This document shows positions 1-17,702 of a stretch of DNA of 64,000 bases, piece by piece. The stretch is from assembly GCF_032681285.1 (NCBI RefSeq), contig NZ_CP136336.1, positions 1,289,001 to 1,353,000 of the forward strand. The letters are read 5' to 3'. The notes beneath the pieces are model-generated. The model was not told the origin of the DNA. It saw only the letters and a program-made list of their open reading frames with translations, and did not search any database. The stretch comes from Piscinibacter gummiphilus (GTDB taxonomy: Bacteria; Pseudomonadota; Gammaproteobacteria; Burkholderiales; Burkholderiaceae_C). Position 1 is the first letter of the stretch. Every line of letters starts with the position of its first letter. Made by a program: the position numbers and the translations under genes.

Positions 1-986
1 TTCTCGCTCTTGTTGAGCACTTCGCGTGCGGCCGATGCCACCACCGGATGTGGACCATCGCCCAGGTGCGGCGTGGTCATCATCCGGTGCAGCGTCACCT
101 CGAAGGGGCAGGCCGGGTCCGACAGGAAATTGGCGACGCCGCGCAGCGTCTTGTCCTCGCCCGCGTACAGCACGTGCAGGATGGCACCCACCAGCAGTGC
201 GTGGCTGGTCTTCTCCCAGTGGTTGCGCCGCTCCAGCGCGCCTTCCGGATCCACCAGGATGTCCGCGATGTTCTGCACGTCGCGCACCTCGTGCACGCTG
301 CGGCGAACTTCCAGCAGCGGGTTGTAGGCGGCCGAGCGCGGATCGGTCGGGTTGAACAGCAGGCAGTGGCTGAAGCGGCTGCGCCAGCCGGCCGTGAGAT
401 GCCAGTTCTCGCCCTTGATGTCGTGGATCACGGCCGAGCCGGGCCAGGTGAGCAGCGTGGGCACCACCAGCCCGACGCCCTTGCCCGAACGCGTGGGCGC
501 GAAGGCCAACACGTGCTCGGGGCCGTCATGGCGCAGGTACGTGCACAGCCCGCGGCGCAGCTTTCGGCCCACGCCTTCGATGCGGCCCAGGAAGACCCCG
601 GCATCGCCGGCCAGGCCGGCCTTCTCCACCTCTTCGGCTTCGGCCCAGCAGGCCGAGCCGTAGGTGGTGACCCGCCCGGCGAGCCGTGCCCGCCACACCG
701 CCATGGCGATGGCCGCGGCGGTGGCGGCCAGCCCGCTCGAAGCGGCCGCGATCCCGCCACGCTCGAAAACGCGGGGCGCATAGGCGCCATAGAGGTACCA
801 CCATTCGAACAACTTCCATGGCTCGTAGGCCGGCATTCCGAGCACATGGAACCAGGCTGGCCCGAGTCCGGCCTGGTAGCCCAAGGCCCGCGCCGTCCAC
901 TGCGTGGCAGCCCACGTGCCGCCCAGCGGCACGCACAGCACCACGATGATCTGTCCGAACAGGATGCCGGTCGCTGATGTCGGCAT
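1..986 (-). CDS. traG: TraG (VirD4-type) conjugative coupling protein, truncated by the window edge
   Basis: Inner-membrane ATPase that links the relaxosome to the mating-pair channel. The first 328 residues are visible and the C-terminus lies off the left edge. Two N-terminal membrane segments lie near residues 8-28 and 78-98. A Walker A motif APTRSGKG is at 163-170, followed by the AVIHDIKGEN stretch around 185-194, as in VirD4/TraG proteins. The ATG at 986 was chosen because GGGAGGTGG lies just upstream. TraR, transcribed in the same direction, lies 264 bp upstream, the traR-traG order of Tn4371-family ICEs. Identity as a coupling protein is secure; the exact family branch is inferred from the neighbourhood. 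Confidence 0.93.
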   Translation of the reverse strand, partial: MPTSATGILFGQIIVVLCVPLGGTWAATQWTARALGYQAGLGPAWFHVLGMPAYEPWKLFEWWYLYGAYAPRVFERGGIAAASSGLAATAAAIAMAVWRARLAGRVTTYGSACWAEAEEVEKAGLAGDAGVFLGRIEGVGRKLRRGLCTYLRHDGPEHVLAFAPTRSGKGVGLVVPTLLTWPGSAVIHDIKGENWHLTAGWRSRFSHCLLFNPTDPRSAAYNPLLEVRRSVHEVRDVQNIADILVDPEGALERRNHWEKTSHALLVGAILHVLYAGEDKTLRGVANFLSDPACPFEVTLHRMMTTPHLGDGPHPVVASAAREVLNKSE

Positions 987-1250
987 GAGGCCACCTCCCG
1001 AGGCACGTGATTTCCAATGCGCGTGCCACCACGACACGCAGGCACGAGTCTGAAATCAGGCGCCCGCGAGGCACACCCGTCGGGGCGTGGCCTGGCGTAC
1101 GCCGGCGGGCGCGTCGCTGTTTTGCTTCTTCTCGTGGAGGCGGTGCGCGTGGGAGCGCGGCCAAGTCAGACGGCGGTCAGCATGCCAGCCGACGCGCATC
1201 GCGTCCAAGGCTTCTGACGCGAGCCGACATCGCGCCACGGCGATGTGCTG

Positions 1251-2144
1251 TTACGGCTGATGCAAGGTTCGGGCGTACGCGAGGAATCGCTGGAGCACCT
1301 CCGGCAGGGCGGGGTGCCGGTGTTTGTGCAGCACGTAGGTCTTGATGCATATGTCTTCAGCCAACGGCACGACGACGACATCGGCGCGACGCAGAGTCGT
1401 CATGTGGCCGGCATCGGCCACGCCGACACCCAGGCCCGCAGCCACGCGGATGACGTAGCCCACCAGGGTCCGGGCTTCGGCTGCGATAACGGGCCTAGCA
1501 GCGTAGTGTCGACGCACAGCGTCCATCTGCTGACGCAGCCCTGGCAGACGGTCGAGGCGGCAGGCGATCATGGGGAAGGCCAGGAGTTCGGAGATCTGCA
1601 CGACCTCGCGGGTGGCCAGTTCGTGGTCGGGTGGAACCAACGCCACCAAGGGGTAGTCCCAGACCATCTCCTGGGCAATGGCGTCATCTTCCGCAATGCC
1701 GAAGGAGAAGCCGACATCGACCTCCTCGCGCCGCAGCGCGGCCAACAGCTCGGACGCAGGCATCTCGGTGATCTCCAGCGGGATGTCGGGCGCCAGTGCG
1801 CGCCAGCCGAGAAAGCAATCGGAGAGCCTGGGCTGGGCCATGCCGTCCGCCACGCCGACGCGAAGCGGTGCGCGGTAGCGGGCGTCGGTTTCGCAGACCA
1901 CCCGTTTGATGCGCTCGAACCGCGTAAAGAGCATGCGGGCATGCTCGAGCAGCTTAGATCCGGCGGGGGTCAGTTTCAGCCTGCGTGGCGCGCGGACGAG
2001 GAGCGTGACACCCAGTTGCTCCTCCAGATCGCGCACGGTGCGCGACAGAGGCGTCTGGTCGACGTGCACGCGTTCGGCAGCACGGCGGAAATTCAGCTCC
2101 TCCGCGACCGCGATGAAGTAGCGCAGATGTCTTAACTCAATCAT
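1251..2144 (-). CDS. traR: LysR-type regulator, probable TraR of a Tn4371-like ICE
   Basis: A 297-aa LysR-type regulator with a winged helix-turn-helix over residues 3-60 (starting MIELRHLRYFIAVAEELNF) and a C-terminal effector-binding domain. It sits directly upstream of traG on the same strand, where Tn4371-family elements carry their LysR gene traR, so a role in controlling transfer genes is more likely than control of the adjacent tph operon. It also lies about 170 bp downstream of tphA1 on the same strand, so a catabolic role is not excluded. The LysR call is certain from sequence; the traR assignment is inferred from position. Confidence 0.8.
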   Translation of the reverse strand: MIELRHLRYFIAVAEELNFRRAAERVHVDQTPLSRTVRDLEEQLGVTLLVRAPRRLKLTPAGSKLLEHARMLFTRFERIKRVVCETDARYRAPLRVGVADGMAQPRLSDCFLGWRALAPDIPLEITEMPASELLAALRREEVDVGFSFGIAEDDAIAQEMVWDYPLVALVPPDHELATREVVQISELLAFPMIACRLDRLPGLRQQMDAVRRHYAARPVIAAEARTLVGYVIRVAAGLGVGVADAGHMTTLRRADVVVVPLAEDICIKTYVLHKHRHPALPEVLQRFLAYARTLHQP

Positions 2145-2314
2145 CGATGCCGCGAGTCGAATGGACTAGTACGCCAGGAATCGATTCACATATTGCAAAA
2201 AGGGCTCAAGCCTTCTTGAAGGAATTCGCTGTATGCCATTTGTCCTCGTAGCCGAATGAGACCGAAGACACCATGAAACGCTCCTGCGGCATCTCTCTAT
2301 GGAGCCGGCCACCT

Positions 2315-3331
2315 TCAGGCCGGCACGGTGCCCGCCGCAGGCCCGCTGACGAACACGTCGGCATGGAAGCGCGCGGCCGGCAGGCCCAGCGCCTGCACCG
2401 CCGCCTCGCGCACCGACTGCACCATCGCCGGCGAGCCGCAGCAGTACAGCTCGTGCCCCGACAGGTCGGGGCAGTGCGCGCGTAGCGCCGCATCGACCCG
2501 GCCGGCGAAGGCGCCCTCGCGCGTCTCTCCGCTGAGCGCCTCGATGAAGCGGAAGTCCTGCGGCCACTGGCGCTGCCACTTCGCGACCGCCGGGCGCAGG
2601 TAGATGCCCTCGGCACGGCGGGCGCCCCAGATCAGCGTGATCGGCCGCGCCACGCGCCGGCGCGCCATGTCGTCCAGGATGGATTTGGCTGGCGCGAAGC
2701 CGGTGCCACCCACGACGAAGACGATCGGCCGGTCCGCGTCCGCCTCCAGCGTGACGGCGCCGAAGGGCAGCTCGACCTCGATCGCGTCGCCCGGCGCCAG
2801 GCTGGGCACGCGCGCGCTGAAGGCGCCGTCGGCCACGTGGCGCACGTGCAGGGTCAGCGTGTCGTTCTCGTGCGGCGGGTTCGCCATCGAATAGCAGCGG
2901 GTGCTGCCGTCGGGCAGCGCGAGTTGCAGGTACTGGCCGGCCTGGAAGCGGGCCCGCTGCCCGGCCGGCAGGCGCAGCTGCAACACCGAGACGTCGGGCG
3001 CCGCCAGCTGGTTGCGGAACACCTTCGCCGTGAAGCGCTTGCGGGCGGCCGGGTCGACGCGGTGCCAGGCGGCGGGGCGGATGCGCAGGTCGCTGCGCGG
3101 CGCGCACATGCACAAGAGCACTTGATCGGGCCCGCAGCTCTCGTTGCGCAGCGGGCCGCCCAGGTTGGCGACCTCGCCCCCGGCCACCGCGCCGGCGCAG
3201 TTGCCGCACACGCCCTTGCGGCAGGAGTAGGGCAGCTCGATGCCGGCGCGCAGCGCGGCGTCGAGCACGCTCTGCGCCGGGCCGCAGTCGAAAGCGGCGT
3301 CGCTGCCCTCGATGGTGATGCGATGGTTCAT
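2315..3331 (-). CDS. tphA1: Terephthalate 1,2-dioxygenase reductase component TphA1
   Basis: 338-aa reductase that passes electrons from NAD(P)H to the TphA2A3 oxygenase. It has an N-terminal plant-type [2Fe-2S] domain (Cys37, Cys42, Cys45, Cys74), then an FAD domain with RCYS at 145-148, then an NAD(P) domain with GGTG at 208-211 and a CCGSP motif near the end. TphA1 proteins have this ferredoxin-first order and length. The ATG at 3331 overlaps the tphB stop as ATGA, indicating translational coupling. It is the last gene of the tphC-A2-A3-B-A1 operon, the order I recall from Comamonas. Confidence 0.93.
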
Positions 3332-4299
3332 GCCGTTCCTTCCTCCACGCCGGCGCTCGTCAGCAGCGCGATGGTGCGCAGCACAGCGCCGGGGTCCGCG
3401 ATGCCGAGGCCGGCGATGTCCATCGCGCTGCCGTGGCCGACGCTGGACAGCAGCGCCTGCGCGCCGATGGACAGCGCGCTGGCCGCGTTCGGCGCCAGCA
3501 GCTTGACGGGGATGTGGCCCTGGTCGTGCAGCATCGCGACGTACAGGTCGTGCCGCCGCTGCGCCAGCAGCAGGTCGGCGCCCAGCGGGCCGTCCACGCG
3601 CAGGCCCTCGGCGCGCAGCGCCTGCACGGCCGGCTCGACGTGCTGCGCGTCCTCGGGGCCGAACAGCCCGCCTTCCGAGGCGTGCGGGTTGATGCCGAAG
3701 ACGCCGATGCGCGGATCGGCGACGCCCAGCCGCGCGCAGGCCCGCACGCCTGCGCGCGCCGCCGCCGCGACCAGCGCGGGCCGCAGGCGGCCCAGCGCAT
3801 GCGCCACGCTCTCGTGCAGCGTGGCGTGCACGATGCGCAGGCCGCCGCCGACGAGCATCAGGAACACGCTGTCCTCCGGCTGGCCGCACACGCGCGCGAC
3901 CAGCGAGGGGTAGCCGCTGAAGGCGATGCCGGCCTGATGGATCGCCGTCTCGTGGTGCGGGCAGGCGACCACGGCGTCGGCCTCGCCGCGCCGGCAGGCC
4001 TCGATGGCGGCGCTGGCTGAGGCGACGGCCGAGGCGCCCGCCGCCGGGTCGATGCGGCCGGGCCGGGCTGCCTGCGCGGGCAGCGTGCCGGCGTCCACCG
4101 CGGGCTGCCCGCGCAGTAGCGCCTCCAGCCCGAGCTGCGATGCCATGCGCTCCAGCACGGCCGCGGGGCCGTACAGCGTGATGCGCTCGCGTGCATCGGA
4201 CGGCAGCGCCGCCAGGGCCTTGAGGGCGATCTCCGGCCCGATGCCGTTGGGGTCGCCCACGGCCAGCGCCAGCCGGGGCGGCGCGACGGTCGCAGCCAT
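3328..4299 (-). CDS. tphB: 1,2-dihydroxy-3,5-cyclohexadiene-1,4-dicarboxylate dehydrogenase TphB (PdxA family)
   Basis: 323-aa PdxA-family dehydrogenase. In this operon it should oxidise and decarboxylate the cis-dihydrodiol made by TphA2A3 to protocatechuate. GDPNGIGPE is at 15-23. Metal-binding histidines are likely in [10 protein letters not shown] and in [11 protein letters not shown], both typical of PdxA. The ATG at 4299 was chosen over an upstream in-frame start because it opens directly on the conserved N-terminus and leaves only 5 nt after the tphA3 stop. A housekeeping pyridoxine role (PdxA proper) is unlikely given its place between tphA3 and tphA1. Confidence 0.92.
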
Positions 4300-4304
4300 G
4301 GCGT

Positions 4305-4769
4305 TCACAGCGGCAGGGCCAGCAGCGTGTCCGTCACCGTGCTGTCGCACACCGCGACGCGCGAGCGCAGGCGCAGCCGGCCATCCTGCCGCACCACGCG
4401 ATCGCGGTAGACGCCGCTGGCGAACAGGTGGGTCTCTCCGGTCGCCATGATGCGCGCCACCATGAAGGGCGTGCGAGCCTCGGCGCCCGTGTCGTCCTGC
4501 GCGCCCAGCACCGGGATGCCCAGCAGATGGCGGTAGCGCTGGCGCTCGTAGATGTTGGCCTCGCGCAGCGCGGCGATGCGGTCCTCCAGCATGGCGCGCG
4601 AATCGGCGTAGACGATGCCGGCCGGCAGGCCCTCGCGCTCATTCTCCGTGTGCGTGATGCGGTAGTGGCAGTCGTCGGTGAAGAAATCGGCCCACCGCTC
4701 CAGCGCATCGCTGTCGATGGTTTCGGCATAGGCCGCGTTGAAGGCGCACAGCGCCAGCAGGTCGATCAT
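4305..4769 (-). CDS. tphA3: Terephthalate 1,2-dioxygenase small (beta) subunit TphA3
   Basis: 154-aa ring-hydroxylating-dioxygenase beta subunit with the NTF2-like fold expected for this family. It carries no redox centre and supports assembly of the TphA2A3 hexamer. The conserved patterns [15 protein letters not shown] and [11 protein letters not shown] are visible. The ATG at 4769 follows the tphA2 stop by 28 bp, and the stop leaves 5 nt before tphB. Length equals the 154 aa I recall for Comamonas TphA3. Confidence 0.92.
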
Positions 4770-4797
4770 GGTGTGCTCTCTCGATGGGCAGGCGCGC

Positions 4798-6042
4798 TCA
4801 GGCGCCCATGTGCTGCCGGTAGGCCTTCCAGAAGCCGCGCACCGAGGCCTCGGTGGCGCGGCCCTCGCTCGACGCGGTGCCGTCGCCGCCCATCTCCACC
4901 ACCGCCTCCAGCGTGCCCGCGCCGGCGATGCCGCGCTGCACGAAGCCGCCGACGGCGCCGTCCTCCATCGAGATGAAGCCGGCCGGCCCGATCAGGTTGG
5001 ACTGCTTGAGCCGCACGCGGCGCTGCTCGGGCGTGTCGTCGGCGTAGCCGAGGTAGGTCCAGTTCAGCTCGGTGCGCTCCACGCCCCTGGGCAGCACCTG
5101 GCGCACCGCCAGGCAGTTTTGGATCTGCTGCAGCACGAAGCCGGGGAAGACCGAGAGGATCTGCAGCGTCACGCCGTCCCCGTATTCCTGGAAGCCGGCC
5201 AGCAGGCTAGGGTCCTTCAGGCGGTAGTTCGCATCGTCCGAGCGCAGGCCCTGGTCGCGGTACGAGGCGTCCTTCTCCGCCTGCGCGTCGATCATGGAGT
5301 AGCTCACATGGTTGCCGCCGCTCTCGTCGACGATGACGCCGCCCTTTTGCGACAGGCGATTGAGCTCGAAGGTGGTGAAGAACAGGTGCAGCAGGCTCGC
5401 GTGGTAGCTGTCGCGCACGTTCTCCACGTACAGCTTCCAGTTGTTGGGCAGCGCCTGCGTGAAGCGCCCGATCACCTCCACCGGCTTGTGCAGCACGCGC
5501 TCGATGCGTTCGCAGATCTCCTCGCCCAGGTACTCCTCGATGCCGGGCACCTCGTCGCTGAAGCTGCCGAAAACCAGCCCGCAGAAGGCCGCCACGCGCA
5601 GCTTGCGCGGGCCGTGCGCCTCCTTGCAGAAGCCGGGCGGCATGCCGCCCTGGCCCTTGACGCCTTTCTCGAAGGCCACGCCGGTCAGGTCGCCCTGCCG
5701 GTTGTAGCTCCAGGCGTGGTAGACGCACTGGAAGTTCTCGGCGCGGCCCGACTTCTCCAGCGCGATCAGCGCGCCGCGGTGGGCGCAGCGGTTCTCGAAG
5801 GCGTAGACCTCGCCGTCCGCGTCGCGCACCACCACCACCGGCGTCTCGCCGACGAAGGTGGTGCGGTAGCTGCCGGCCTCGGGCAGCTCGGCCTCCAGGC
5901 ACAGGTAGTTCCAGGTCTCGCCCTGGAAGATGCGCGCCTGCTCCTCGGCGGCGAGCTGCGCGTCGCGGTAGACGCCGTAGGGGATGCGCGTGAGCCCGGG
6001 GCCGGACCAGCGGACGGGTTGAAGGGTGGACGTGTCTTGCAT
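4798..6042 (-). CDS. tphA2: Terephthalate 1,2-dioxygenase large (alpha) subunit TphA2
   Basis: 414-aa catalytic oxygenase that cis-dihydroxylates terephthalate. The Rieske cluster ligands are Cys86/His88 and Cys106/His109. Mononuclear iron ligands follow the D-x2-H-x4-H pattern at Asp211, His214 and His219. Long stretches, such as the region around [20 protein letters not shown] and the C-terminal [20 protein letters not shown], match what I remember of Comamonas TphA2 almost residue for residue, so substrate assignment is firm although no alignment was run. The gene starts 7 bp after the tphC stop; its ribosome site is weak, which suggests coupling. Confidence 0.95.
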
Positions 6043-6049
6043 GGGTTGC

Positions 6050-7018
6050 TCAGTCGAGGCGGACGTTGGCGCTGCGGATGACCCGGTCCCACTTGGCGGA
6101 CTCGGCGCGGATGAACTGGCCGGTGCGGGCCGGGTCCCAGCCGCGCGGCTCGGCGCCCTGCTCGGCGAACTTCTGCCGCACCTCGGGCTGGGTCAGTGCG
6201 CCGGCAAAGCTCTTCTGGAGCGCGGCCACCTTGGCCGCGGGGGTGCCCGGCGGCGCCACCACCGCGAACCAGGTCACGGCGTTCATCGACGGCAGCCCCT
6301 GCTCGGCGAAGGTGGGCACCTCGGGCAGTGCTGCGGAGCGCTGCTCGTCGGCCACGCCCAGGATGCGCAGCTTGCCCGCCTGGTGGAAGGGCAGCGACGA
6401 GCTGATGTTGTCGAAGAACACGTCGATCTGCCCGCCCACCAGGTCCACCAGCGCCGGCGCCGTGCCCTTGTAGGGGACGTGGACCATCTCCGTGCCCGTG
6501 AGCTGCATGAACAGGCTGGCCGTCAGGTGCGAGGTGGTGCCGTTGCCCTGCGAGCCGTAGGTCACCTTGCCCGGGTTGGCCTTGGCGTAGGCGATGAACT
6601 CCTGCACGGTCTTCACCGGCAGCCGCGGGTTGACCACCAGCACGTTGGGCACCGTCGCCAGCACCGTGACCGGCTCCCACTTCGACGGGTCGAAGGCCAT
6701 CTTCCGGTACAGGTGGTGGTTGATGGCGATCGGCCCGGGCGGCGAGGCCAGCAGGGTGTTGCCGTCGGGTTCGGCGCGGAATACCGCCTCGGCGCCGATG
6801 TTGCCGCCGGCGCCGGTGCGGTTGTCGATCAGCACGCCGGCGGGGAACTGCGCGCGCAGCTTCTCGGCCACCACGCGCGGCAGGATGTCGGCCGTGCCGC
6901 CGGCGGGGTAGGGCACGATGATCTTGAGGGCTTGCGGGGTCTGTGCCGTGGCGCTGCCGAGCAGGCAGGCCGCGGTCAGGCAGGCGGCGCCGAGGCGCCG
7001 CGCGAGGGCGGTTGTCAT
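6050..7018 (-). CDS. tphC: Bug/TTT-family periplasmic terephthalate-binding receptor TphC
   Basis: 322-aa tripartite-tricarboxylate-transporter solute receptor with an N-terminal signal peptide ending near TAQTP. Family motifs are [16 protein letters not shown], the [15 protein letters not shown] region and [12 protein letters not shown]. As first gene of the tph operon it corresponds to TphC, which binds terephthalate in the periplasm and hands it to a TctAB-type membrane pair. No TctA/TctB genes lie in the window, so the permease must be encoded elsewhere. The ATG at 7018 has GGAGA about 10 nt upstream. It is transcribed divergently from the iclR remnant across a 129-bp regulatory gap. Confidence 0.9.
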
Positions 7019-7070
7019 CCTGTTGTGTCTCCGTGTCTGACGTTCATCGGGGGTGATCCAGTGTCCGGGC

Positions 7071-7134
7071 CGCATGCCTTCCGCCACAAGCCGGATGTGC
7101 GGCATGCGCAAAAATGGACACCCCGGCATGCGCA
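7071..7134. promoter_or_regulatory. Repeated GGCATGCG sites in the tphC / iclR intergenic region
   Basis: The 129-bp gap between divergent tphC and the iclR remnant holds three copies of GGCATGCG: one inverted at 7071-7078 and two direct at 7101-7108 and 7125-7132. The direct copies extend to CGGCATGCGCA with 24-bp spacing. Repeated, palindrome-containing sites in such a gap are what an IclR-type activator/repressor of tph would bind. No clear -35/-10 pair could be placed. The intact iclR copy further right lacks these repeats upstream. Confidence 0.45.
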
Positions 7135-7147
7135 GGATCAAGATGCG

Positions 7148-8026
7148 ATGGCAGACAAGAACTTCGTGAGCTCGCTCGACAAGGGCCTGCAGGTGCTGGG
7201 CTGCTTCGGCCGGCAGCACGCGCGGCTCACCGTCTCGGAGGCGGCGCGCCTGACCGGCAGCACGCCGGCCTCGGCGCGGCGCTCGCTGCTCACGCTGCAG
7301 GCGCTCGGCTACCTCGACAGCGACGGCAAGCGCTTCTGGATGCTGCCCAAGGCGCTGCTGATCGCGCACGCCTATCAGTTCCCGCCCGATGCCGCAGCTT
7401 GCGCAGCCGCTGCTGGTCGCTCTCTCCGAGCGCACCCGTGAGTCGGCCAGCCTGGGCATGCTTCTGGGCGACGATGTGGTGATCGTCGCTCGCGCAATTG
7501 CCCGGCGCAGCCTTTCGACGGGGCTGGCCATCGGATCGCGGCTTCCGAGCTATTGCTCGGCGCTCGGCGGGGTGTTGCTCGCCGCGTTCGAGCCCCTGGA
7601 GGCACGCAGACGTGTCGACCAGATGCAGCGCGCTGCACTGACACCGCGCACCCTCTGGCGTAGCAACGACGTCGTGGCCGAGGTGGCCCGCTGCCGCGAG
7701 CAGGGCTGGTCGGAGAGCGATGAGGAACTGGAACTCGGCGTGCGGTCGATGGCCATCCCGGTGTTCGACCGTGCGGGCGATACCGTCGGCGCCATGAGCA
7801 TCGCGGTCCAGGCCGACCGTATGACGATGGCGGATTCCGTTCGACCATGCTGCCGGCGCTGCGTCGTGCGCGCGATGCGCTGGCGACCCGCTTGCCGGCG
7901 GATTGTGCGCACCCGGGCCGGGCGCAGTGGAGCCGCTGCGGCGGGCATCTCGGTACTTCGATGCAAAGCGTCGTAGGGGAAACCCTGGAACGACCAAGTT
8001 TCTTTCGCGATGCGCAAATATCCTGA
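7148..8026 (+). pseudogene. Chimeric, twice-frameshifted IclR-family regulator (tphR-like)
   Basis: Begins MADKNFVSSLDKGLQVLGCF and is nearly identical at DNA level to the intact regulator at 10013 for about 230 bp, through the AHAY codons ending near 7377. From there the frame breaks. The reading resumes one frame over at 7389 (MPQLAQPLLVALSERTRES) with much lower similarity to the intact copy. A second shift near 7833 leads into the C-terminal stretch FRSTMLPALRRARDALATRL, and the last frame stops at 8026. The helix-turn-helix would still be made, as a truncated protein of about 98 residues. The pattern suggests recombination between two iclR genes with the junction at the first frameshift. 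Confidence 0.85.
8009..8021 (+). promoter_or_regulatory. ATGCGCAAATAT element upstream of MHETase, resembling a tph-site half
   Basis: ATGCGCAAATAT, about 85 bp before the MHETase start, differs at one position from ATGCGCAAAAAT, which overlaps one of the GGCATGCGCA repeats of the tphC/iclR gap. It could be a binding site that puts MHETase under the same IclR regulator. The evidence is a single short match, so confidence is low. Confidence 0.3.
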
Positions 8027-8105
8027 CGCTACATCAAGCCTTCGGTCACACCATCGCGCCCGCGGCTGCAAATCAATGCCGCGAACCAGTCGAAGGAGAC
8101 ATAAG

Positions 8106-9911
8106 ATGCAGACAACAGTCATCACGATGCTGCTGGCGTCGGTGGCCCTAGCCGCGTGCGGTAGCGGCGGATCCACGCCGCTGCCGCAGCAGCAGCCGCC
8201 GCAGCAGGAGCCTCCGCCGCCCCCGGTGCCCTTGGCTTCGCGCGCCGCATGCGAGGCTCTGAAGGACGGAAATGGCGACATGGTGTGGCCAAATGCCGCG
8301 ACGGTCGTGGAAGTCGCTGCCTGGCGTGACGCCGCGCCCGCCACCGCATCTGCGGCGGCGCTGCCCGAACACTGCGAGGTGTCCGGCACCATCGCGAAGC
8401 GCACCGGGATCGACGGCTATCCCTACGAAATCAAATTCCGCCTCCGGATGCCCGCAGAATGGAACGGTCGTTTCTTCATGGAAGGCGGCGGCGGAACCAA
8501 CGGCTCGCTGTCCGCGGCTACCGGCAGCATTGGTGGGGGACAGATCGCAAGCGCGCTGTCTCGCAATTTCGCCACCATCGCAACGGATGGAGGTCACGAC
8601 AACGCAGTGAACGACAATCCCGACGCGCTCGGCACCGTTGCCTTCGGATTGGATCCGCAGGCCCGTCTCGACATGGGCTACAACTCGTACGATCAGGTCA
8701 CGCAGGCAGGCAAGGCCGCGGTGGCCAGGTTCTACGGACGCGCTGCCGACAAGTCCTATTTCATCGGCTGTTCGGAGGGCGGCCGCGAGGGCATGATGCT
8801 CTCGCAGCGCTTCCCTTCCCACTACGACGGCATCGTTGCCGGTGCACCAGGCTACCAGTTGCCGAAGGCCGGGATCAGCGGTGCGTGGACCACACAGTCC
8901 CTTGCGCCCGCCGCTGTCGGCTTGGATGCACAAGGCGTGCCGCTTATCAATAAGTCTTTCTCTGACGCCGACCTGCACCTTCTTTCACAGGCAATCCTGG
9001 GCACATGTGACGCCCTCGACGGCCTTGCGGATGGCATCGTTGACAATTACCGGGCATGCCAGGCAGCCTTTGACCCCGCCACGGCAGCCAATCCTGCAAA
9101 CGGCCAGGCGCTCCAGTGCGTTGGCGCCAAGACTGCGGATTGCCTGAGCCCCGTCCAGGTCACTGCGATCAAGCGCGCGATGGCGGGGCCCGTGAATTCG
9201 GCGGGAACGCCGTTGTACAACAGATGGGCTTGGGACGCTGGCATGAGCGGACTGAGTGGCACGACCTATAACCAGGGGTGGCGCTCGTGGTGGCTCGGTA
9301 GCTTCAACAGCAGTGCCAACAACGCCCAGCGCGTGAGCGGCTTCTCGGCGCGCTCCTGGCTGGTCGATTTCGCCACACCGCCCGAACCGATGCCCTTGAC
9401 GCAGGTTGCCGCGCGGATGATGAAATTCGATTTCGACATCGATCCGTTGAAGATTTGGGCGACCAGCGGACAGTTCACCCAATCCAGCATGGACTGGCAC
9501 GGTGCAACTTCTACTGACCTTGCTGCCTTCCGCGATCGCGGCGGCAAGATGATCCTGTACCACGGCATGTCCGACGCCGCGTTCTCAGCCCTGGACACGG
9601 CCGACTATTACGAGAGACTTGGCGCAGCGATGCCAGGTGCTGCTGGATTCGCGCGCCTTTTTCTGGTGCCGGGTATGAATCATTGCAGCGGCGGTCCCGG
9701 GACCGACCGGTTCGACATGCTGACGCCCTTGGTCGCCTGGGTCGAGCGCGGCGAGGCGCCGGATCAGATCTCCGCCTGGTCGGGCACGCCAGGGTACTTC
9801 GGGGTGGCGGCACGCACGCGGCCACTTTGCCCGTATCCCCAAATCGCCCGCTACAAGGGTAGTGGAGACATCAACACCGAAGCGAACTTCGCCTGCGCGG
9901 CGCCGCCCTGA
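8106..9911 (+). CDS. MHETase: mono(2-hydroxyethyl) terephthalate hydrolase, tannase-family lipoprotein
   Basis: 601-aa tannase/feruloyl-esterase-family (PF07519 type) enzyme that hydrolyses MHET to terephthalate and ethylene glycol. From memory it matches Ideonella sakaiensis MHETase (603 aa) along its whole length, with numbering offset by 2 after a short gap in the proline/glutamine linker. The catalytic triad is Ser223 (GCSEGG), Asp490 and His526 (I. sakaiensis S225, D492, H528). Substrate-pocket counterparts Trp395, Arg409, Phe413 and Ser417 are present, as is the Ca-binding loop CDALDGLADG at 301-310. Residue 129 is Gly where I recall Ser131. The signal ends in a lipobox at Cys18 (VALAAC), so an outer-membrane lipoprotein is expected. 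GAAGGAGAC lies 5 nt before the ATG at 8106. The product feeds the tph operon next door. Confidence 0.96.
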   Translation: MQTTVITMLLASVALAACGSGGSTPLPQQQPPQQEPPPPPVPLASRAACEALKDGNGDMVWPNAATVVEVAAWRDAAPATASAAALPEHCEVSGTIAKRTGIDGYPYEIKFRLRMPAEWNGRFFMEGGGGTNGSLSAATGSIGGGQIASALSRNFATIATDGGHDNAVNDNPDALGTVAFGLDPQARLDMGYNSYDQVTQAGKAAVARFYGRAADKSYFIGCSEGGREGMMLSQRFPSHYDGIVAGAPGYQLPKAGISGAWTTQSLAPAAVGLDAQGVPLINKSFSDADLHLLSQAILGTCDALDGLADGIVDNYRACQAAFDPATAANPANGQALQCVGAKTADCLSPVQVTAIKRAMAGPVNSAGTPLYNRWAWDAGMSGLSGTTYNQGWRSWWLGSFNSSANNAQRVSGFSARSWLVDFATPPEPMPLTQVAARMMKFDFDIDPLKIWATSGQFTQSSMDWHGATSTDLAAFRDRGGKMILYHGMSDAAFSALDTADYYERLGAAMPGAAGFARLFLVPGMNHCSGGPGTDRFDMLTPLVAWVERGEAPDQISAWSGTPGYFGVAARTRPLCPYPQIARYKGSGDINTEANFACAAPP

Positions 9912-9916
9912 AAGGG

Positions 9917-9931
9917 GCCACGTAGCGTGGC
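9917..9931 (+). terminator. Short GCCACG-TAG-CGTGGC hairpin just after MHETase
   Basis: A perfect 6-bp stem with 3-nt loop starts 6 nt after the MHETase stop. No clear T-run follows, so this may be an imperfect terminator or an mRNA 3-prime stabilising hairpin. It separates MHETase from the regulator that follows about 80 bp later. Confidence 0.35.
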
Positions 9932-10012
9932 GCCTTGCACGATTGCTCCGGCAAGGTGAAGTTTTCATGCTGCGTACTTGACGATCGGGTCCTGGAAGCA
10001 GGTCAAGACGCG

Positions 10013-10774
10013 ATGACAGACAAAAACTTCGTGACTTCGCTCGACAAGGGTCTGCAGGTGCTGAGCTGCTTCGGCCGGCAGCACGCGCGACTGACAGTCT
10101 CGGAGGCGGCGCGCCTGACCGGCAGCACGCCGGCCTCGGCGCGGCGCTCGCTGCTCACGCTGCAGGCTCTTGGCTACCTCGACAGCGACGGCAAGCGCTT
10201 CTGGATGCTGCCCAAGGCGCTGCTGATCGCGCACGCCTACCTCGCCTCGCGCGCGACGCCCACGCTGGCGCAGCCGCTGCTGGATGCGCTGTCGGAGCGC
10301 ACCCGCGAGTCGGCCTCGCTGGGCAAGCTGCTGGACGACGACGCGATCATCATCGCTCGCTCCACGGCGCGGCGCAGCCTGAGCATCGGGCTGGGCATCG
10401 GCTCGCGCCTGCCGGCCTACTGCTCGGCCATCGGCCGCGTGCTGCTGGCCAGCCTGCCGCCGGGCGAGGCCGAGCGCCGCGTGCGCGCCATGCCGCGCCA
10501 GCCGCTGACGCCGCGCACGGTGTACGAGGTGCGCCCCGTGCTGGAGCTGATCGCGCGCTGCCGCGAGCAGGGCTTCGCCGGCAGCGACGGCGAGCTGGAA
10601 CTGGGCGTGCGCTCCATGGCCGTGCCGGTGCACGACCGCAGCGGCTCGCTGGTGGGTGCCATGAGCATCGCGGTGCGCGCCGAGCGCATGAGCTTCGCCG
10701 AGTTCCGCGAGGCCTTCCTGGCCGCCCTGCGCAAGGCCGGCACTACGTTGGGCGAGCGGCTTTATCCCGAGTGA
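10013..10774 (+). CDS. tphR: IclR-family regulator of terephthalate catabolism, probable TphR
   Basis: 253-aa IclR-family protein with an N-terminal winged helix-turn-helix (residues 9-60, including LTVSEAARLTGSTPASARRS) and a C-terminal effector domain (SLGKLLDDDAIIIAR, LGVRSMAVPVHDRSGSLVGA). The family and the tph neighbourhood point to a terephthalate-responsive activator. The start at 10013 matches the start of the broken copy at 7148. It is separated from the tphC promoter by the broken copy and MHETase, so it would have to act in trans on the 7.1-kb gap. The ribosome site is poor. Confidence 0.88.
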   Translation: MTDKNFVTSLDKGLQVLSCFGRQHARLTVSEAARLTGSTPASARRSLLTLQALGYLDSDGKRFWMLPKALLIAHAYLASRATPTLAQPLLDALSERTRESASLGKLLDDDAIIIARSTARRSLSIGLGIGSRLPAYCSAIGRVLLASLPPGEAERRVRAMPRQPLTPRTVYEVRPVLELIARCREQGFAGSDGELELGVRSMAVPVHDRSGSLVGAMSIAVRAERMSFAEFREAFLAALRKAGTTLGERLYPE

Positions 10775-11131
10775 AGGGGAACGGCCTGCTACACCCTGTG
10801 CACTACGCCCGCGCTCAACTCAGAGACACTGGCTGTACGCGAAGACTACCGGGGTTGGACTGCTTCAAGCTCCTTCAGAAACCACGAAAATCCAACCCCG
10901 TCCAGCCCTCAAACTGACATGGGATGATGTCGAGGACCACGTGCGGAGTCTGGTCAGTCTCCTTGGGTTCATCCTTCAGGCACGTCCTTGGGCAGCAACG
11001 ACTGCGTCATGGCAACCCACTCTTCTGCTAAGACAAACCCCGGCGTCGCCGACAGTGCGTCGCCTCGATTTCCAGCCAGGGCTGTACGCGAATCCCTCGG
11101 CGCCATCTTGCGTCCAGTCGCACTCTCGGCG
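10775..11131. other. 357-bp gap with an inverted repeat and a 13-bp direct repeat
   Basis: No convincing gene lies here. It contains a perfect 10-bp inverted repeat CGGGGTTGGA / TCCAACCCCG (10850-10859 and 10891-10900, 31-nt loop). It also has a 13-bp direct repeat GGCTGTACGCGAA at 10831-10843 and 11080-11092. The stretch joins the PET-monomer block to the next cargo block and may be a junction scar. Confidence 0.4.
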
Positions 11132-11992
11132 TCAAGGCTTGTCGGGCCTCTCGAGGAAGGCGAAAACGCCAAGCATGCTTCTGTCGATGACCGTGCGGTG
11201 ATCCGCGTCCTGAATCTCCTCGTAGCGAAAGATCATCTTTCGCTCTTCCATGGCATCAATCCACGTCCTAGTCATGTCGACGGGAACCGCTTGATCGACC
11301 ACGCCCTGCGTGATCATCACAGGCACGGTGATCTTGGAGAGAACTTCCTGCATCCGGGGGACCATTCGTCGGGTCGCCGGCGCGATGGCCGCAACGGCGT
11401 TCCACTGCTTGGGATATTTGGATGCGAGGTAGAGCGCGCCGGCGCCTCCCATGGAATGACCGACTAGGAACGTGCGCGCCGGGTCCGTCCGGAACTCCTG
11501 CTTCGCCAGGGCCAGCACGTTCATGACGTCCTGCTCACTCAACGCCCTCAGGTTCGGGGGATCGTGGGCCGCTGCAGGATCGGGGGTGCGGCCAAGGCCT
11601 GCGCGGGGGCTGTACTCGCCGGGGATGCCATACCAGCCCCGCGGGTTGTATCCCATGGGCGCAACCACGACATAGCCGCCCTTCTCGGCCAGGTCGAGCA
11701 GCGCGCCGCGCATGAGGGTGTTGTGGTTCCCGTTCAGTCCATGCAGCGCGATGATCAAAGGCGCCGGCTTGTCTTTCCTGACCTTGCTGGAAACGAACAC
11801 CGCGTAGGGCAAGTCCTCCCCGGTGGGACCGAAACGGTAGGTCCGCTGCCCGACCCGCGGATCGGGGGGCAAAGGCTGCGGCCGCGGCGATGCAGGCGGG
11901 GCGACGGGCTGAGCCGCCACGACCCCGGACAACGCCGACAAGCCAACGCCGATCGCCCATGCCCGAAGCATGTTTCTTCTGTCGAGTTCCAT
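11132..11992 (-). CDS. Exported alpha/beta-hydrolase esterase (PHB-depolymerase/LpqC-like)
   Basis: 286-aa serine esterase with nucleophile Ser180 in GHSMGGAG, Asp233 and His265 as the probable triad, and an oxyanion strand LIIALHGLNGN near 79-89. The N-terminus DRRNMLRAWAIGVGLSAL, with a hydrophobic stretch ending in VVAAQ, looks like a Tat-type signal, so the enzyme should act in the periplasm or outside. AAAGG lies about 6 nt before the ATG at 11992. It is the last gene of the minus operon that begins at 16961. Substrate is unknown; an aromatic or phthalate ester is plausible from context. It resembles polyhydroxybutyrate-depolymerase-type esterases rather than PETase/cutinase in its N-terminal half. 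Confidence 0.8.
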   Translation of the reverse strand: MELDRRNMLRAWAIGVGLSALSGVVAAQPVAPPASPRPQPLPPDPRVGQRTYRFGPTGEDLPYAVFVSSKVRKDKPAPLIIALHGLNGNHNTLMRGALLDLAEKGGYVVVAPMGYNPRGWYGIPGEYSPRAGLGRTPDPAAAHDPPNLRALSEQDVMNVLALAKQEFRTDPARTFLVGHSMGGAGALYLASKYPKQWNAVAAIAPATRRMVPRMQEVLSKITVPVMITQGVVDQAVPVDMTRTWIDAMEERKMIFRYEEIQDADHRTVIDRSMLGVFAFLERPDKP

Positions 11993-12033
11993 AGCCTTTC
12001 CTTTCCACGCCGAAATGCCGGCGGCTTCTCCGC

Positions 12034-12996
12034 CTATTCCCGCCCGGACCTTGCGTGCAGCGCGAACGCCATGAGGCGCAGGTCGCGCCAGTGAGACCTT
12101 TCCCGCAGTTGCGCCTGGGGCAGCAGCTTCCGGCGCTGTGCCTCGACCTCGGCGATCAATTCGGCATCCCAGCTGTCCGAATGGTCCCTCGACGCGGCGA
12201 TGCGCTGGTAGAGCGGCCCCAATCGCCGGGCATAGTCGGCGACGCCGCCCACCGCATTGAGGTCGATGGTCTCGAACGGTCCCATGAAGGACCAGCGCCA
12301 TCCCAACCCGTCGCGTACGGTCTTGTCGATGTCCTCCACCGAGGCGATCCCATCCTTGACCAGTGCCCAGGCCTCCCTGAGCAGCACGGCCTGGAGGCGA
12401 TTGAGGACGAAGCCATCGATCTCGCGTCTCACCGTGATCGGACTCTGGTCGCATGCCAGCATCAGCTCGCGGGCGAAATTCAGAGCATCCGCACCGGTAT
12501 CGGGCGAGGGAACCAGCTCGACCAGCGGGATCAACGACGGCGGATTGACCGGGTGCACCACGAGGACGCGGTCGCTGATGCGCAGCCCAGATGCAAACGC
12601 GGAGGCCGGGATTCCCGAGGTAGAACTACCGATGATCCGCCTGCCGTCGTCCAACGGCTCGAGTTGCTCAAGCAAAGCGCGCTTCAGATCCGCCTTCTCC
12701 AGAATTGACTCCTGGACGTAGACGGCATTGCGCACCGCCTCCTCCAGCGAGGCCACAACCCGGACTCTTCCGGCGACGACGGACGGGGGTTCGTCGACCA
12801 GCCCCTGGTCGGACAGCGCGTCCAACTGCAGCCGTATCCGGCCTGGCGCTGCCTCCAGGACGGCGGCATCGGCGTCATGGATGTTGACAGCGAATCCGGC
12901 CCGGGCGAAAACCACGGCCCACGCGCAACCGACCAGGCCCACACCGATGCAGGCAACGGTTCCGAAGTTCTTGGGATCTATCATGGGCATATTCAT
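12034..12996 (-). CDS. 3-hydroxyacyl-CoA dehydrogenase-like NAD-dependent dehydrogenase (lambda-crystallin type)
   Basis: 320-aa protein with a Rossmann NAD-binding motif GVGLVG at 18-23, the EEAVRNAVYVQESILEKADL stretch, SSTSGIP and HPVNPPSLIPLVELV. These are typical of the 3-hydroxybutyryl-CoA/gulonate/carnitine dehydrogenase group. It would oxidise a 3-hydroxy acid or acyl-CoA. ATG at 12996 was taken, but ATGs 6 and 12 nt downstream are possible and no strong ribosome site distinguishes them. It lies between the hemerythrin and esterase genes in one operon, so it probably handles an intermediate formed after the Rieske step. Confidence 0.8.
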   Translation of the reverse strand: MNMPMIDPKNFGTVACIGVGLVGCAWAVVFARAGFAVNIHDADAAVLEAAPGRIRLQLDALSDQGLVDEPPSVVAGRVRVVASLEEAVRNAVYVQESILEKADLKRALLEQLEPLDDGRRIIGSSTSGIPASAFASGLRISDRVLVVHPVNPPSLIPLVELVPSPDTGADALNFARELMLACDQSPITVRREIDGFVLNRLQAVLLREAWALVKDGIASVEDIDKTVRDGLGWRWSFMGPFETIDLNAVGGVADYARRLGPLYQRIAASRDHSDSWDAELIAEVEAQRRKLLPQAQLRERSHWRDLRLMAFALHARSGRE

Positions 12997-13033
12997 CACA
13001 AGGTTCAAAGAATTTCGCGCTCCCTGCCCCAGT

Positions 13034-13540
13034 TCATGCGTAGCCCTGAATTGGGGCGCCTGCACGCAGTCCGAGCTTCGAGATGAGGACCGGCGCCCCG
13101 CCCCAGCGCTGTCGGGCAAGCCAAGTGGCAAGCCCTTGGTCCATCACGCGCGTGTGGCCTGGAAACCAGTCGGCCAGCGCAATCGCGAAGGCACGAACCA
13201 CATCGGCGCGCCCCTGGCCAAACGCAATCTTGACTTCGCGCAGGCTTTCCAACACGGCAGCATGCTCTTCGACGTGGCAGCGTGCCGAGTCGTACCGCGA
13301 GACGCGCATCGTCTCTTCCTCCTCAGCAAAGTGCGAGCGCACATGGCGCTCGAAAGCGGCCAGGGCGGCATCCAGCGCCCCAGTGTCCGACGACAGCAGC
13401 GCATCGACGCACCGAACGAACTCGCGATGCATCAAGTCCATGCTCTCTTCTCCGAGCACGAACCTTTCATCCCAGGCGAGCGAACTCGGGATTGGTCGTT
13501 GAACAGCCAGCGCCGCAACCGAAAGGGCTTCCTTGCTCAC
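13034..13540 (-). CDS. Hemerythrin-domain (bacteriohemerythrin-like) oxygen/iron-binding protein
   Basis: 168-aa single-domain hemerythrin. Probable di-iron ligands are His38, His70 and Glu74 (HFAEEEETM), His89 and His93 (HVEEH), and His129 and Asp134 (HTRVMD), in the usual spacing. Such proteins bind O2 or act as oxygen/redox sensors or iron stores. Its start overlaps the stop of the upstream TTT-receptor gene as ATGA, so it is translated with a catabolic operon. An O2-delivery or sensing role for the Rieske oxygenase two genes upstream is a reasonable guess, not shown. Confidence 0.85.
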   Translation of the reverse strand: MSKEALSVAALAVQRPIPSSLAWDERFVLGEESMDLMHREFVRCVDALLSSDTGALDAALAAFERHVRSHFAEEEETMRVSRYDSARCHVEEHAAVLESLREVKIAFGQGRADVVRAFAIALADWFPGHTRVMDQGLATWLARQRWGGAPVLISKLGLRAGAPIQGYA

Positions 13541-14601
13541 GGGTTGGTCCCAAGGCCTGCCTCCCGGATCACGCCGCTGAGCTTCTTCACATCACCTTCA
13601 AGCCACTTGCGCGCTTCGACCGAGCCGACGAACCTGGGCTGCACCTCCAGATCGTTGAGACTCTTCATGATGGCCGGATCGTTCATCGCATCCCGGAAGG
13701 CGGCTTCGAGGCGCTGCAATACGGGTGCGGGAGTTCCTGCCGGCGCGGAGATCGTCACCAGCTGTTCGTTTCCGTCGAGCTCCGGGTAACCCTGCTCGCC
13801 CGTCGTTCCAGCGCTGGGCAAGAGCGGCAGCCGCGTGGGCCGCTGCACGGCGATCACCCGCAGCCCTGCACCATCCATCTGCTTGACCAGCGAGCTGTAG
13901 GGCAAGACGCAGGCGTCGACATCGCCGGCCTTGATCGCGGTCAGCGCCGGTGCCACTCCGTTGTAGGGAACATGCGTGATGTTCAGCTTCTGGCCGGGAT
14001 GGTTCTTCTGGAAGGCGAACCTGAACATCTCCAGTTGAAGGTGGTTGATGCCGTTGGCGCCCGTGGAGCAGATGCTCAGTCCTCCAGGCCTGCTGTTCGC
14101 CAATGCCACGAGTTCGGGCAATGTCTTGGCCGGGGTCTTGTCGCTGACGGCGAACAGGGAGGTGTAGATGCCCAGGCCCGCGATGGGCGCGTAGTCCTTC
14201 AGGCTGAACTCGTGGTTACGAACGAGCAGATGGACGAAGCCGAACGCCGAGCCGGAGGCGATGAACAGCGTGTAGCCGTCCGGCTTGGCCGTGGCTGCGG
14301 CGCGCGCTCCGACGGCGCTGCCGGCACCCGGGCGGTTGACGATCACCACCGGCTGCCCCAGGAGCTCATTGACCTTCTTGCCCAGCACGCGGGCGGTCGC
14401 ATCGAGGCTGCCACCGGCGGCGAAGGGAACGATGATGCTGATCGGTCCCTGAGGAAACGCCGGTTCGGCCGCCGCGGCGCGCTGCGCAGCCGCAGCCAGA
14501 AGCGCTGATGCCAGCAGCGCGGGTAGGACCTGGCTGCCGAACTTCGGCAGTTGGAGGGCGAAGCGGGCGCGGCGCGCCAGCCCGGCGATGGTCGGGATCA
14601 T
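13537..14601 (-). CDS. Bug/TTT-family periplasmic solute receptor
   Basis: 354-aa tripartite-tricarboxylate-transporter receptor. A signal peptide with hydrophobic core LLASALLAAAAQ ends near AAAAEP. Family motifs are ISIIVPFAAGGSLDATARV, the NRPGAGSAVGARAA region and ISAPAGTPAPV. It likely binds an aromatic acid substrate of this operon. The ATG at 14601 has AAGGAG about 8 nt upstream. It is coupled by ATGA overlap to the hemerythrin gene and follows the Rieske oxygenase gene by 44 bp. Membrane components are absent. Confidence 0.86.
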   Translation of the reverse strand: MIPTIAGLARRARFALQLPKFGSQVLPALLASALLAAAAQRAAAAEPAFPQGPISIIVPFAAGGSLDATARVLGKKVNELLGQPVVIVNRPGAGSAVGARAAATAKPDGYTLFIASGSAFGFVHLLVRNHEFSLKDYAPIAGLGIYTSLFAVSDKTPAKTLPELVALANSRPGGLSICSTGANGINHLQLEMFRFAFQKNHPGQKLNITHVPYNGVAPALTAIKAGDVDACVLPYSSLVKQMDGAGLRVIAVQRPTRLPLLPSAGTTGEQGYPELDGNEQLVTISAPAGTPAPVLQRLEAAFRDAMNDPAIMKSLNDLEVQPRFVGSVEARKWLEGDVKKLSGVIREAGLGTNP

Positions 14602-14645
14602 ACGGTGTCTCCTTGACGGACGTTGGTCTGGGATCGGACAGGCCC

Positions 14646-15929: not shown

Positions 15930-15995
15930 GGCGGTATGAAGTAGCTATTGGGTTTCGCGAAGATGGATCTGAAGAAGCCGGACGCACCACAGACA

Positions 15996-16961
15996 TCAGT
16001 CGGCCTTGGCCCCAGACGCCTGGATGACAGGGGCCCACTTCAAGATGTCGGCACGGATGCGCTGGTCGTATTCCTGGGGGCTGGAGCCGACGGGATCCAA
16101 TCCCATTTCGAGCAGCTTGTGCGCAAATTCCGGCGTGTGCGCCGCGCGTGCGATGTCCGCACTGATCTTCTGCACGATGGCCGCCGGCGTGCCCGCCGGC
16201 GCAATCACGCCGACGCTGCTCTGGGCCGACACGCCAGGAACAGTCTCGGCGACCACCGGGATGTCGGGCACGCTGGCCGGGCGCGAGGGACTGAACAGGG
16301 CGATGGGCTTGAGCTTCCCAGCCTTGATGAGGCCGGCGCTGGCGTAGTAGGTGTCCATCAGCAGCGGCACCTGCCCGCCCATCACGTCCTGTTGTGCCGG
16401 CGCGCCCCCGCGGTACGGCACGTGGACGATGTTCACGCCCGCCTTGACCTTCAGAAGCTCCATCACCAGGTGGTGCGCGGTGCCGCTTCCCGGGCTCGCA
16501 TAGCTCAGACGCCCGGGCTGCCGCCGGGCGAGCTCCAGCAACTCCGCGAGATTGCCCGCCGGCAGCGACGGGTTGGCATCCAGGATGATGTGCTGCACAC
16601 CCACCTCCGACACCGGCTGGAGATCCTTCAGCGTGTCGTAGGGCAGGTTCGACCTCAGCGTCGGATTGATCGCATGGGACGACACGGCGATGCCTAGCGT
16701 GTAGCCATCCGGCGGGGCCTTGGCGACCACGTTGGTCGCCAGCACGGCGCCGGCACCCGGCCGGTTGTCGACGACCACCGGCTGGCCCCATACCTCGGAA
16801 AGCTTTTGCGCCAACAGCCGCCCCTGCGCATCGGTCGAGCCACCCGGCGGGAACGGGATGACGAGCCGGACCGGCCGGCTGGGCCAGTCGTCCTGCGCGT
16901 GGACCGGCGAGGTCATGGCCAGCGGAAGCAGCGGCAGCGCCAAGCGCATCCTGTTTTTCAT
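15996..16961 (-). CDS. Bug/TTT-family periplasmic solute receptor
   Basis: 321-aa receptor, first gene of the minus operon. Signal peptide LALPLLPLAMTSPVHAQ, then VRLVIPFPPGGSTDAQGR, the DNRPGAGAVLATNVV region and VIAPAGTPAAIV. ATG at 16961 has AAGGAG 8 nt upstream. Its promoter at 17046-17074 carries the palindromic site shared with the divergent plus operon, so it is likely repressed by the MarR protein at 17207. Confidence 0.87.
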   Translation of the reverse strand: MKNRMRLALPLLPLAMTSPVHAQDDWPSRPVRLVIPFPPGGSTDAQGRLLAQKLSEVWGQPVVVDNRPGAGAVLATNVVAKAPPDGYTLGIAVSSHAINPTLRSNLPYDTLKDLQPVSEVGVQHIILDANPSLPAGNLAELLELARRQPGRLSYASPGSGTAHHLVMELLKVKAGVNIVHVPYRGGAPAQQDVMGGQVPLLMDTYYASAGLIKAGKLKPIALFSPSRPASVPDIPVVAETVPGVSAQSSVGVIAPAGTPAAIVQKISADIARAAHTPEFAHKLLEMGLDPVGSSPQEYDQRIRADILKWAPVIQASGAKAD

Positions 16962-17040
16962 CGTGTGTCTCCTTGGCCCGTGGCGGCCAGTGCGTTCTCA
17001 TCTGCACGTACATCCAGACCCATGGATCGACGATGTAACG

Positions 17041-17686: not shown

Positions 17687-17702
17687 ACCGGCCGGCAGCG
17701 TC

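Follow-up and report, generated by a model that had tools for sequence, protein, structure and literature searches.

MHETase and terephthalate genes as probable cargo of a Tn4371-type integrative and conjugative element in Piscinibacter gummiphilus

Introduction

Ever since Ideonella (Piscinibacter) sakaiensis 201-F6 was described, it has been unclear where its pathway for the use of poly(ethylene terephthalate) (PET) comes from. We analyse here the window, a stretch of 64,000 nucleotides from Piscinibacter gummiphilus (assembly GCF_032681285.1, contig NZ_CP136336.1, positions 1,289,001 to 1,353,000 of the forward strand), which carries at 2315-10774 a cassette of genes for a MHETase, the hydrolase of mono(2-hydroxyethyl) terephthalate (MHET), and for terephthalate degradation (tph). 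We consider it very probable that this cassette is cargo of a Tn4371-type integrative and conjugative element (ICE) of about 100.9 kb in a tRNA-Leu(CAA) gene, and we propose that it is spread by such ICEs and may be coupled to their transfer through the regulator gene traR.

The closest described elements are Tn4371, ICEKKS102Tn4677 and the Tn4371-like ICE carried by pPNAP01 (PMC2789088); papers are cited by PubMed Central number. The main target of ICEKKS102 is tRNA-Leu, with integration at the 3' end of the gene (PMC9960961). Its traR is co-transcribed with the upstream cargo operon, overexpression of traR leads to more excision and transfer, and cargo points toward traR in 30 of 32 family members (PMC11448139). 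Clusters for phthalate isomers are described, as a general statement, as often lying near transposases or integrases (PMC13040137), and no published report of a MHETase on an ICE was found in a search that left out supplements, preprints and most subscription journals. Tn4371-type ICEs and the enzymes were already known; what is new is the MHETase-tph cargo, its near-identity across genera and an ICE-derived piece in I. sakaiensis.

The cassette and its MHETase

An earlier note on this DNA, made from its letters and open reading frames, had read a MHETase, terephthalate genes in the order tphC-A2-A3-B-A1 and IclR genes at 2315-10774, and all are present as it stated (Table 1). From tphA1 to tphC (2315-7018) the five tph genes share the minus strand; A1, A2, A3, B, C and an IclR-type regulator are all present. 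The nearest solved relatives act on terephthalate, with TphA1, whose matches in the PDB are general reductases only, assigned by domains and place; for TphB, matches nearer than 4ATY carry the name 4-hydroxythreonine-4-phosphate dehydrogenase. The IclR genes are two copies of tphR, of which the first is frameshifted and the second, scoring slightly below the TIGR02431 cut-off, intact. For this second copy the frame read earlier stands, while the start at 9935 is an upstream TTG in that frame and the gene call begins at 10013. (Gene limits beyond the supplied list of open reading frames come from a separate gene caller.)

On these assignments, the lipoprotein MHETase would split MHET into terephthalate and ethylene glycol, TphC would hand terephthalate to a transporter encoded elsewhere, and TphA1A2A3 with TphB would convert it to protocatechuate under TphR. 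Among the cargo proteins scanned (20 of the 35 called genes in 11132-49473 and two more of them), there is neither a terephthalate permease (tpiBA) nor a protocatechuate ring-cleavage enzyme.

The product of 8106-9911 aligns over its full length with the I. sakaiensis MHETase (PDB 6QZ2) at about 99% identity; low identity, which the earlier note had named as a ground for doubt, did not occur. It differs from that enzyme by six substitutions (T6I, A19G, G20S, A97T, S131G and M433L) and is two residues shorter, in a proline-rich linker. The note had also claimed all the triad and pocket residues. The triad Ser225-Asp492-His528 is indeed kept, as S223, D490 and H526, but the MHET pocket set (S131, E226, R411, F415, S419, F495 and others) is identical at every mapped position save for Gly in place of Ser131. 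This is the one exception in 22 functional positions mapped, a set partly taken from PMC7568301.

Among the 120 homologues listed of 1692, position 131 is Gly in 115, Ser in four and Ala in one, and Gly has been reported in 91% of the family (PMC7568301). Ser131 is likely the derived state; that it is unique to I. sakaiensis was considered and rejected on account of the four homologues with Ser. The window encodes a natural enzyme almost identical to the best-studied MHETase but with Gly131.

The element and its site

The ICE extends from -11818 to 89114 in window coordinates, negative numbers lying left of the window and those above 64,000 right of it. In three genomes of the same genus (G008, G006 and G009) the site is empty and the two flanks meet, with a 7-bp overlap: the left flank ends at -11819, the right flank begins at 89108, and CTCAAAA stands at both. 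Joined, the flanks form a normal tRNA-Leu(CAA), a host gene that the ICE splits in the anticodon loop. The target is thus a tRNA-Leu gene, as described for ICEKKS102, although at the anticodon loop rather than at the 3' end (PMC9960961).

A second tRNA-Leu(CAA) lies directly inside the left end of the ICE, at -11625 to -11304, with an insert of about 240 nt in its anticodon loop. Its 3' exon is 98% identical to a Pseudacidovorax tRNA-Leu, as against 82% to those of same-genus genomes, and its 5' exon is 93-97% identical to Pseudacidovorax. We guess that this gene may replace the split host gene, and that the insert may shield it from the ICE's own integrase. The insert itself we take, as a guess from a resemblance to the Azoarcus intron, to be a group I intron; Rfam supports this weakly at best, giving nothing at E 0.1 and, for a shorter stretch, Intron_gpI at 13.2 bits (gathering 50, E 0.64). 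Default tRNA scans of the window and both end regions found neither gene, the split and the interrupted tRNA-Leu being detected only with flanks joined and introns allowed.

The gene order is the mirror image of that of the pPNAP01 element, which runs RadC, ParB, DUF736, helix-turn-helix (HTH), DUF2958, DUF2285, HTH, RepA, ParA, DUF2840, TraF, relaxase, cargo, LysR, TraG. Integrase, RepA/ParA/ParB, TraF, RlxS, TraR, TraG and Trb thus stand in the order conserved in Tn4371-family ICEs, and all the backbone genes called are open frames; RadC and some small genes were named by eye. Left of traG lie the trb genes, with TrbB, TrbE, TrbJ, TrbL and TrbF above curated cut-offs, TrbI (185 of 386 bits) and TrbC (43 of 211 bits) below them, and TrbD placed by position, a gene without a match standing there. 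The relaxase is 53.6% identical to that of pPNAP01, and the repA-like gene has no NCBIfam match at 1e-8. As several matches fall under their curated cut-offs, the family assignment rests on order and similarity.

With family order, defined ends and three empty sites, the flanking tra and trb genes form one ICE, as the earlier note had proposed, and not separate decayed fragments. The note had placed the cluster between traR and traI. That order holds, but the relaxase gene (rlxS, its "traI") lies 40 kb to the right, and the cluster forms the traR-proximal end of a 48-kb cargo. The ICE resembles Tn4371, ICEKKS102Tn4677 and the pPNAP01 element in order, in catabolic cargo directed toward traR and in its tRNA-Leu target; it differs in carrying MHETase-tph rather than biphenyl cargo, in its CTCAAAA core and in its own interrupted tRNA-Leu.

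Table 1. Features of the element in window coordinates, with the basis of each assignment
Feature	Position	Strand	Basis
traG, coupling protein, 680 aa	986 to -1056 (leaves the window on the left)	-	NF010450 TraG 1143 bits, cut-off 674
traR (LysR-type regulator)	1251-2144	-	LysR family matches; place and direction as LysR gene before traG in pPNAP01 and as traR of PMC11448139
tphA1, terephthalate dioxygenase reductase	2315-3331	-	Fer2, FAD_binding_6, NAD_binding_1; DNA 94.5% identical with that of I. sakaiensis
tphB, dihydrodiol dehydrogenase (PdxA family)	3328-4308	-	PdxA; 4ATY terephthalate 1,2-cis-dihydrodiol dehydrogenase, E 2.6e-86
tphA3, dioxygenase small subunit	4305-4769	-	7Q04 beta subunit, terephthalate 1,2-dioxygenase, E 4.6e-65
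tphA2, dioxygenase large subunit	4798-6042	-	7VJU/7Q04 terephthalate 1,2-dioxygenase, 764-768 bits
tphC, terephthalate-binding protein of TTT transporter	6050-7018	-	8HKA periplasmic terephthalate binding protein, 656 bits, very few differences
tphR copy 1 (IclR type), frameshifted after residue 76	7148-7976	+	tblastn with copy 2 as query: change of frame between residues 1-76 and 77-230
MHETase (601 aa), lipoprotein of the tannase family with Gly for Ser131 of I. sakaiensis	8106-9911	+	Pfam Tannase 412.6 bits; 6QZ2 1361 bits
tphR copy 2 (IclR type), intact	10013-10774	+	TIGR02431 PcaR/PcaU/PobR family 265.9 bits (9935 start), cut-off 284.75
Further cargo, common with the Pseudacidovorax element	11132-49473		Pfam on 20 of 35 called genes, and alignment
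rlxS/traI relaxase, 626 aa	50508-52388	-	NF041267 RlxS 618 bits over 2-622, below cut-off 850
traF signal peptidase	52854-53390	-	TIGR02771 85 bits, below cut-off 100
parA	54198-54962	-	NF041546 263.9 bits, above cut-off 180
repA-like replication initiator	54983-56005	-	position only; place of replication initiator A in pPNAP01
parB-like partition protein	60060-62120	-	PRTRC_parB 67 bits, below cut-off 279; place of ParB in pPNAP01
tyrosine integrase	87601-88929 (right of the window)		

A near-identical block in Pseudacidovorax

A scan of genome contigs for MHETase relatives, in which the best 80 of 553 confirmed loci were considered, gave a locus at 99% in a Pseudacidovorax metagenome-assembled genome (MAG; G011), two at 73-74% and the remaining 77 at 54% or less; I. 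sakaiensis was not among the matches listed, and near records may be left out. The best protein match, P0001, is not the MAG protein. The 221-kb MAG contig matches this genome at 84% over -11241 to -6602 and at 99.19% over -6530 to 49473 (56,035 aligned columns), a shared block of about 56 kb that spans traG, trbB-trbD, traR and most of the cargo. Between -6531 and -2531 (4 kb) there are 237 mismatches, none of them right of -3200; 13 follow from -3200 to 36836 and two from 41435 to 49473, which makes 15 in about 48 kb. Within the cassette there are eight, and the MHETase linker differs in length by 12 bases. The stretch between, 36837-41434, which holds RND efflux genes, has 145 mismatches inside an otherwise near-identical block and is attributable to local recombination.

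The rpoB genes of the two hosts are 85% identical, those of other Burkholderiales tested 80-89%, and so few mismatches between genera point to recent movement. In the MAG, the tRNA-Leu/cysM site is intact, and the element occupies 67.2 kb between 46-bp repeats of tRNA-Lys(CTT), beside an integrase of its own and a pair identified by eye as IS21-like. To its right, 13 kb of flank are 93, 88 and 95% identical to P. intermedius in three pieces; compared with this genome, the main pieces reach 75-79%. Elsewhere in the same MAG (C19:40321, C24:88083 and C5:191514) there are additional trb regions with 74-77% identity to this ICE, so that the MAG may harbour several related ICEs that swap modules.

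The I. sakaiensis locus

Of 399 genomes drawn from the family, three show a MHETase match at an E-value no higher than 1e-150, namely the present one, G073 (99%) and G331 (54%). Within the genus (11 genomes), only this one matches the greater part of the query at more than 50%. G073, from another genus, encodes a MHETase identical to 6QZ2 at 603 of 603 residues, and is taken as I. sakaiensis 201-F6 because of that identity. Over window 282-11290 its contig C104 (11,068 bp) runs collinear, with 96.2% identity, and so includes traR and the first part of traG. The genes, order and orientation are alike, MHETase adjoining the tph genes as the earlier note had stated, and the broken tphR copy is shared. 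I. sakaiensis differs in having Ser131 for Gly and in that the piece is bounded by contig ends, -8999 to 281 and 11291-30800 not being found. The search of G073 covered -8999 to 30800 of the ICE. For -8999 to 500 (trb and the rest of traG) it returned the end of C104 and otherwise matches of at most about 90 bp, and for 10900-30800 it returned 391 bp of C104 at 99% and otherwise pieces at 82% or less.

The first tphR copy is broken after the same residue in the window, the Pseudacidovorax MAG and I. sakaiensis. From this shared frameshift we infer that all three loci come from one cassette, already damaged and already beside traR-traG. Divergence between the window and I. sakaiensis is uneven (about 1% in MHETase and tphC, 2-8% in the other tph genes and 10% in traR), which suggests recombination. 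The synteny search proposed in the earlier note thus yielded a near-identical 56-kb block in another genus and an 11-kb piece in I. sakaiensis, and its suggestion that the pathway can move between bacteria is strengthened by both. By sequence, then, cargo in an ICE of family order with clean ends has its counterpart in the same assembled cassette of two other organisms.

Possible read-through into traR

If the cassette is ICE cargo, what might set off its transfer? One option is terephthalate itself. The tph operon points toward traR, with 170 bp between the end of tphA1 (2315) and the start of traR (2144), and in a simple scan the minus strand of this interval showed nothing resembling a terminator. 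As has been proposed for biphenyl in ICEKKS102, terephthalate may raise tph transcription into traR, and more TraR would then promote excision and transfer. Terephthalate-induced transfer is a fair prediction from this arrangement; if it is true, terephthalate pollution would induce transfer of the ability to use terephthalate.

Weighing the alternatives

Several points weigh against our reading. At 2304-2324, overlapping the end of tphA1, lies an inverted repeat of 7 bp that lacks a T run but might weaken read-through. Direct repeats of 8 bp resembling TTTTTCAT are described in the Tn4371 family, and no TTTTTCAT-like repeat is present at the ends of this ICE, where the core is CTCAAAA; such a repeat is not universal, however, because members without one are listed in the same paper (PMC2789088). 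TraG, compared with plasmid records only, is 81.0% identical to the best full-length record listed (V. boronicumulans) and 75.1% to pPNAP01, lower than the 84-96% amino acid identity given inside the family (PMC2789088). The S131G change made in the I. sakaiensis enzyme raised Km about eightfold and left about 3% of kcat/Km (PMC7568301). The Pseudacidovorax genome is a MAG, and over 220 of the 221 kb of its contig tblastn at E 1e-5 gave no match to RlxS, TraF, ParA, the RepA-like protein, ParB, RadC or this ICE's integrase, so that the MAG element appears incapable of transfer on its own. Left of -6602 its trb genes reach no more than 84% identity, and with the unmatched backbone genes this indicates a shared block on different backbones.

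Could the ICE then be a decayed, immobile island, and its MHETase a feruloyl-esterase-like enzyme that serves poorly for MHET? Gly131 with the published kinetics and the broken tphR copy speak for this, but we find it rather improbable, since the called backbone genes are open, the second tphR copy is intact and mismatches between genera are few. Moreover, Gly131 homologues from Comamonas and Hydrogenophaga do hydrolyse MHET, their kcat being 9.5 and 3.8 per s as compared with 27.6 (PMC7568301). In light of Gly131 and the S131G kinetics, the product of 8106-9911 is a MHETase by sequence and probably a weaker one than that of I. sakaiensis, with a much higher Km predicted.

A second alternative is that the cassette moves as a separate unit, by a transposon or by transformation and homologous recombination between resident ICEs, which would be passive landing sites. 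In Pseudacidovorax, the element has another integrase and another site, the tRNA-Lys with its 46-bp repeat, and its trb genes have diverged; the right-hand edge of the shared block carries the IS21-like pair; and the 11-kb I. sakaiensis piece lacks the neighbouring ICE stretches searched. We nevertheless regard a separate unit as less likely, given that traG, trbB-trbD and traR, all ICE backbone, lie inside the block in both genomes and that traR with part of traG accompanies the cassette in I. sakaiensis.

It is also conceivable that the Pseudacidovorax copy arose from binning or assembly, in which case a recent transfer between genera would not be established, since the genome is metagenome-assembled and the block almost identical to the window. 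This we judge very unlikely. A single 221-kb contig joins the block to the P. intermedius-like flank (on the right side, the one tested), the element ends in the tRNA-Lys repeat beside an integrase, and the trb genes, the patch at 36.8-41.4 kb and the right end all differ from the window, so that the copy is not simply window DNA. We thus retain ICE cargo as the preferred reading: the cassette would spread by conjugation of ICEs, rather than by another route, and by exchange of modules between them.

PETase and the I. sakaiensis pathway

Five PETase-family genes score above cut-off in this genome. One, on the chromosome (C1:955344-956213), has 95.5% protein identity to the I. sakaiensis PETase, and another, on the 201-kb contig C2 (162405-163274), has 97.2%. 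PETase, MHETase and TphA1A2A3B thus all appear to be encoded in this genome. The chromosomal copy is 97.6, 89.0, 83.4 and 75.6% identical to its relatives in G008, G009, G006 and G001, respectively; at E 1e-60, no PETase was found in four of nine same-genus genomes searched or in the Pseudacidovorax MAG. The I. sakaiensis PETase contig and C2 are 99.34% identical along 3,507 bp; the 23 mismatches are confined to 392 bp inside the PETase gene, and the remaining 3.1 kb are free of them. For the gene alone, I. sakaiensis is closer to G008 (98.7% DNA identity) than to C2 (97.4%), so the 392-bp patch has its own history. In a tree of 69 rows, rooted for drawing only, the I. sakaiensis PETase falls in a group of five with this genome, G008 and one further row (support 100/98).

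These observations allow a wider proposal, which we put forward tentatively and at somewhat less than an even chance. The I. sakaiensis pathway would consist of two separate mobile imports. MHETase-tph would have arrived on a Tn4371-type ICE, since eroded, and PETase would stem from the Rhizobacter lineage, to which the present genome belongs, with Ser131 fixed after capture and terephthalate triggering ICE transfer by read-through from tph into traR. In favour of the PETase import, the Rhizobacter lineage has chromosomal orthologues as well as a copy on a 201-kb replicon that matches the surroundings of the I. sakaiensis PETase. The ICE itself is a likely vehicle, with ends, relatives and a recent trail; the origin of the I. 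sakaiensis pathway becomes testable, and the possible spread of PET-monomer use can be recast as a mating experiment.

Other relatives and cargo

Comamonas sp. E6 (PMC8556258) and a Hydrogenophaga MAG (L022) likewise have tphC-A2-A3-B-A1 with a divergent tphR. In L022, a MHETase (77%) lies in the tph cluster but beyond tphA1 and not between two tphR copies; with its single intact tphR, it represents MHETase-tph linkage in another arrangement. Neither traG nor traR has a match on that 13-kb contig. Plasmids and phages were considered as vehicles and rejected: none of 165 matching plasmid records has a MHETase of at least 60% identity, and two phage records reach 38% only.

The further cargo at 11132-49473 holds two Rieske oxygenases, TctC receptors, sugar-acid kinase and aldolase genes, a FAD monooxygenase, a two-component system, a P-type ATPase, RND efflux and an aldehyde dehydrogenase. 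A second tannase-family enzyme (24850-26418), 37% identical to the MHETase, stands among the sugar-acid and Rieske oxygenase genes. In the right part of the ICE, 65034-85985 is a defence-like island with a DruE-like helicase (305 bits), a DrmMI-like methyltransferase (207 bits), a HamB-type (Hachiman) helicase (1163 bits) and a HEC-05-like protein, in a run of which all genes but one were scanned.

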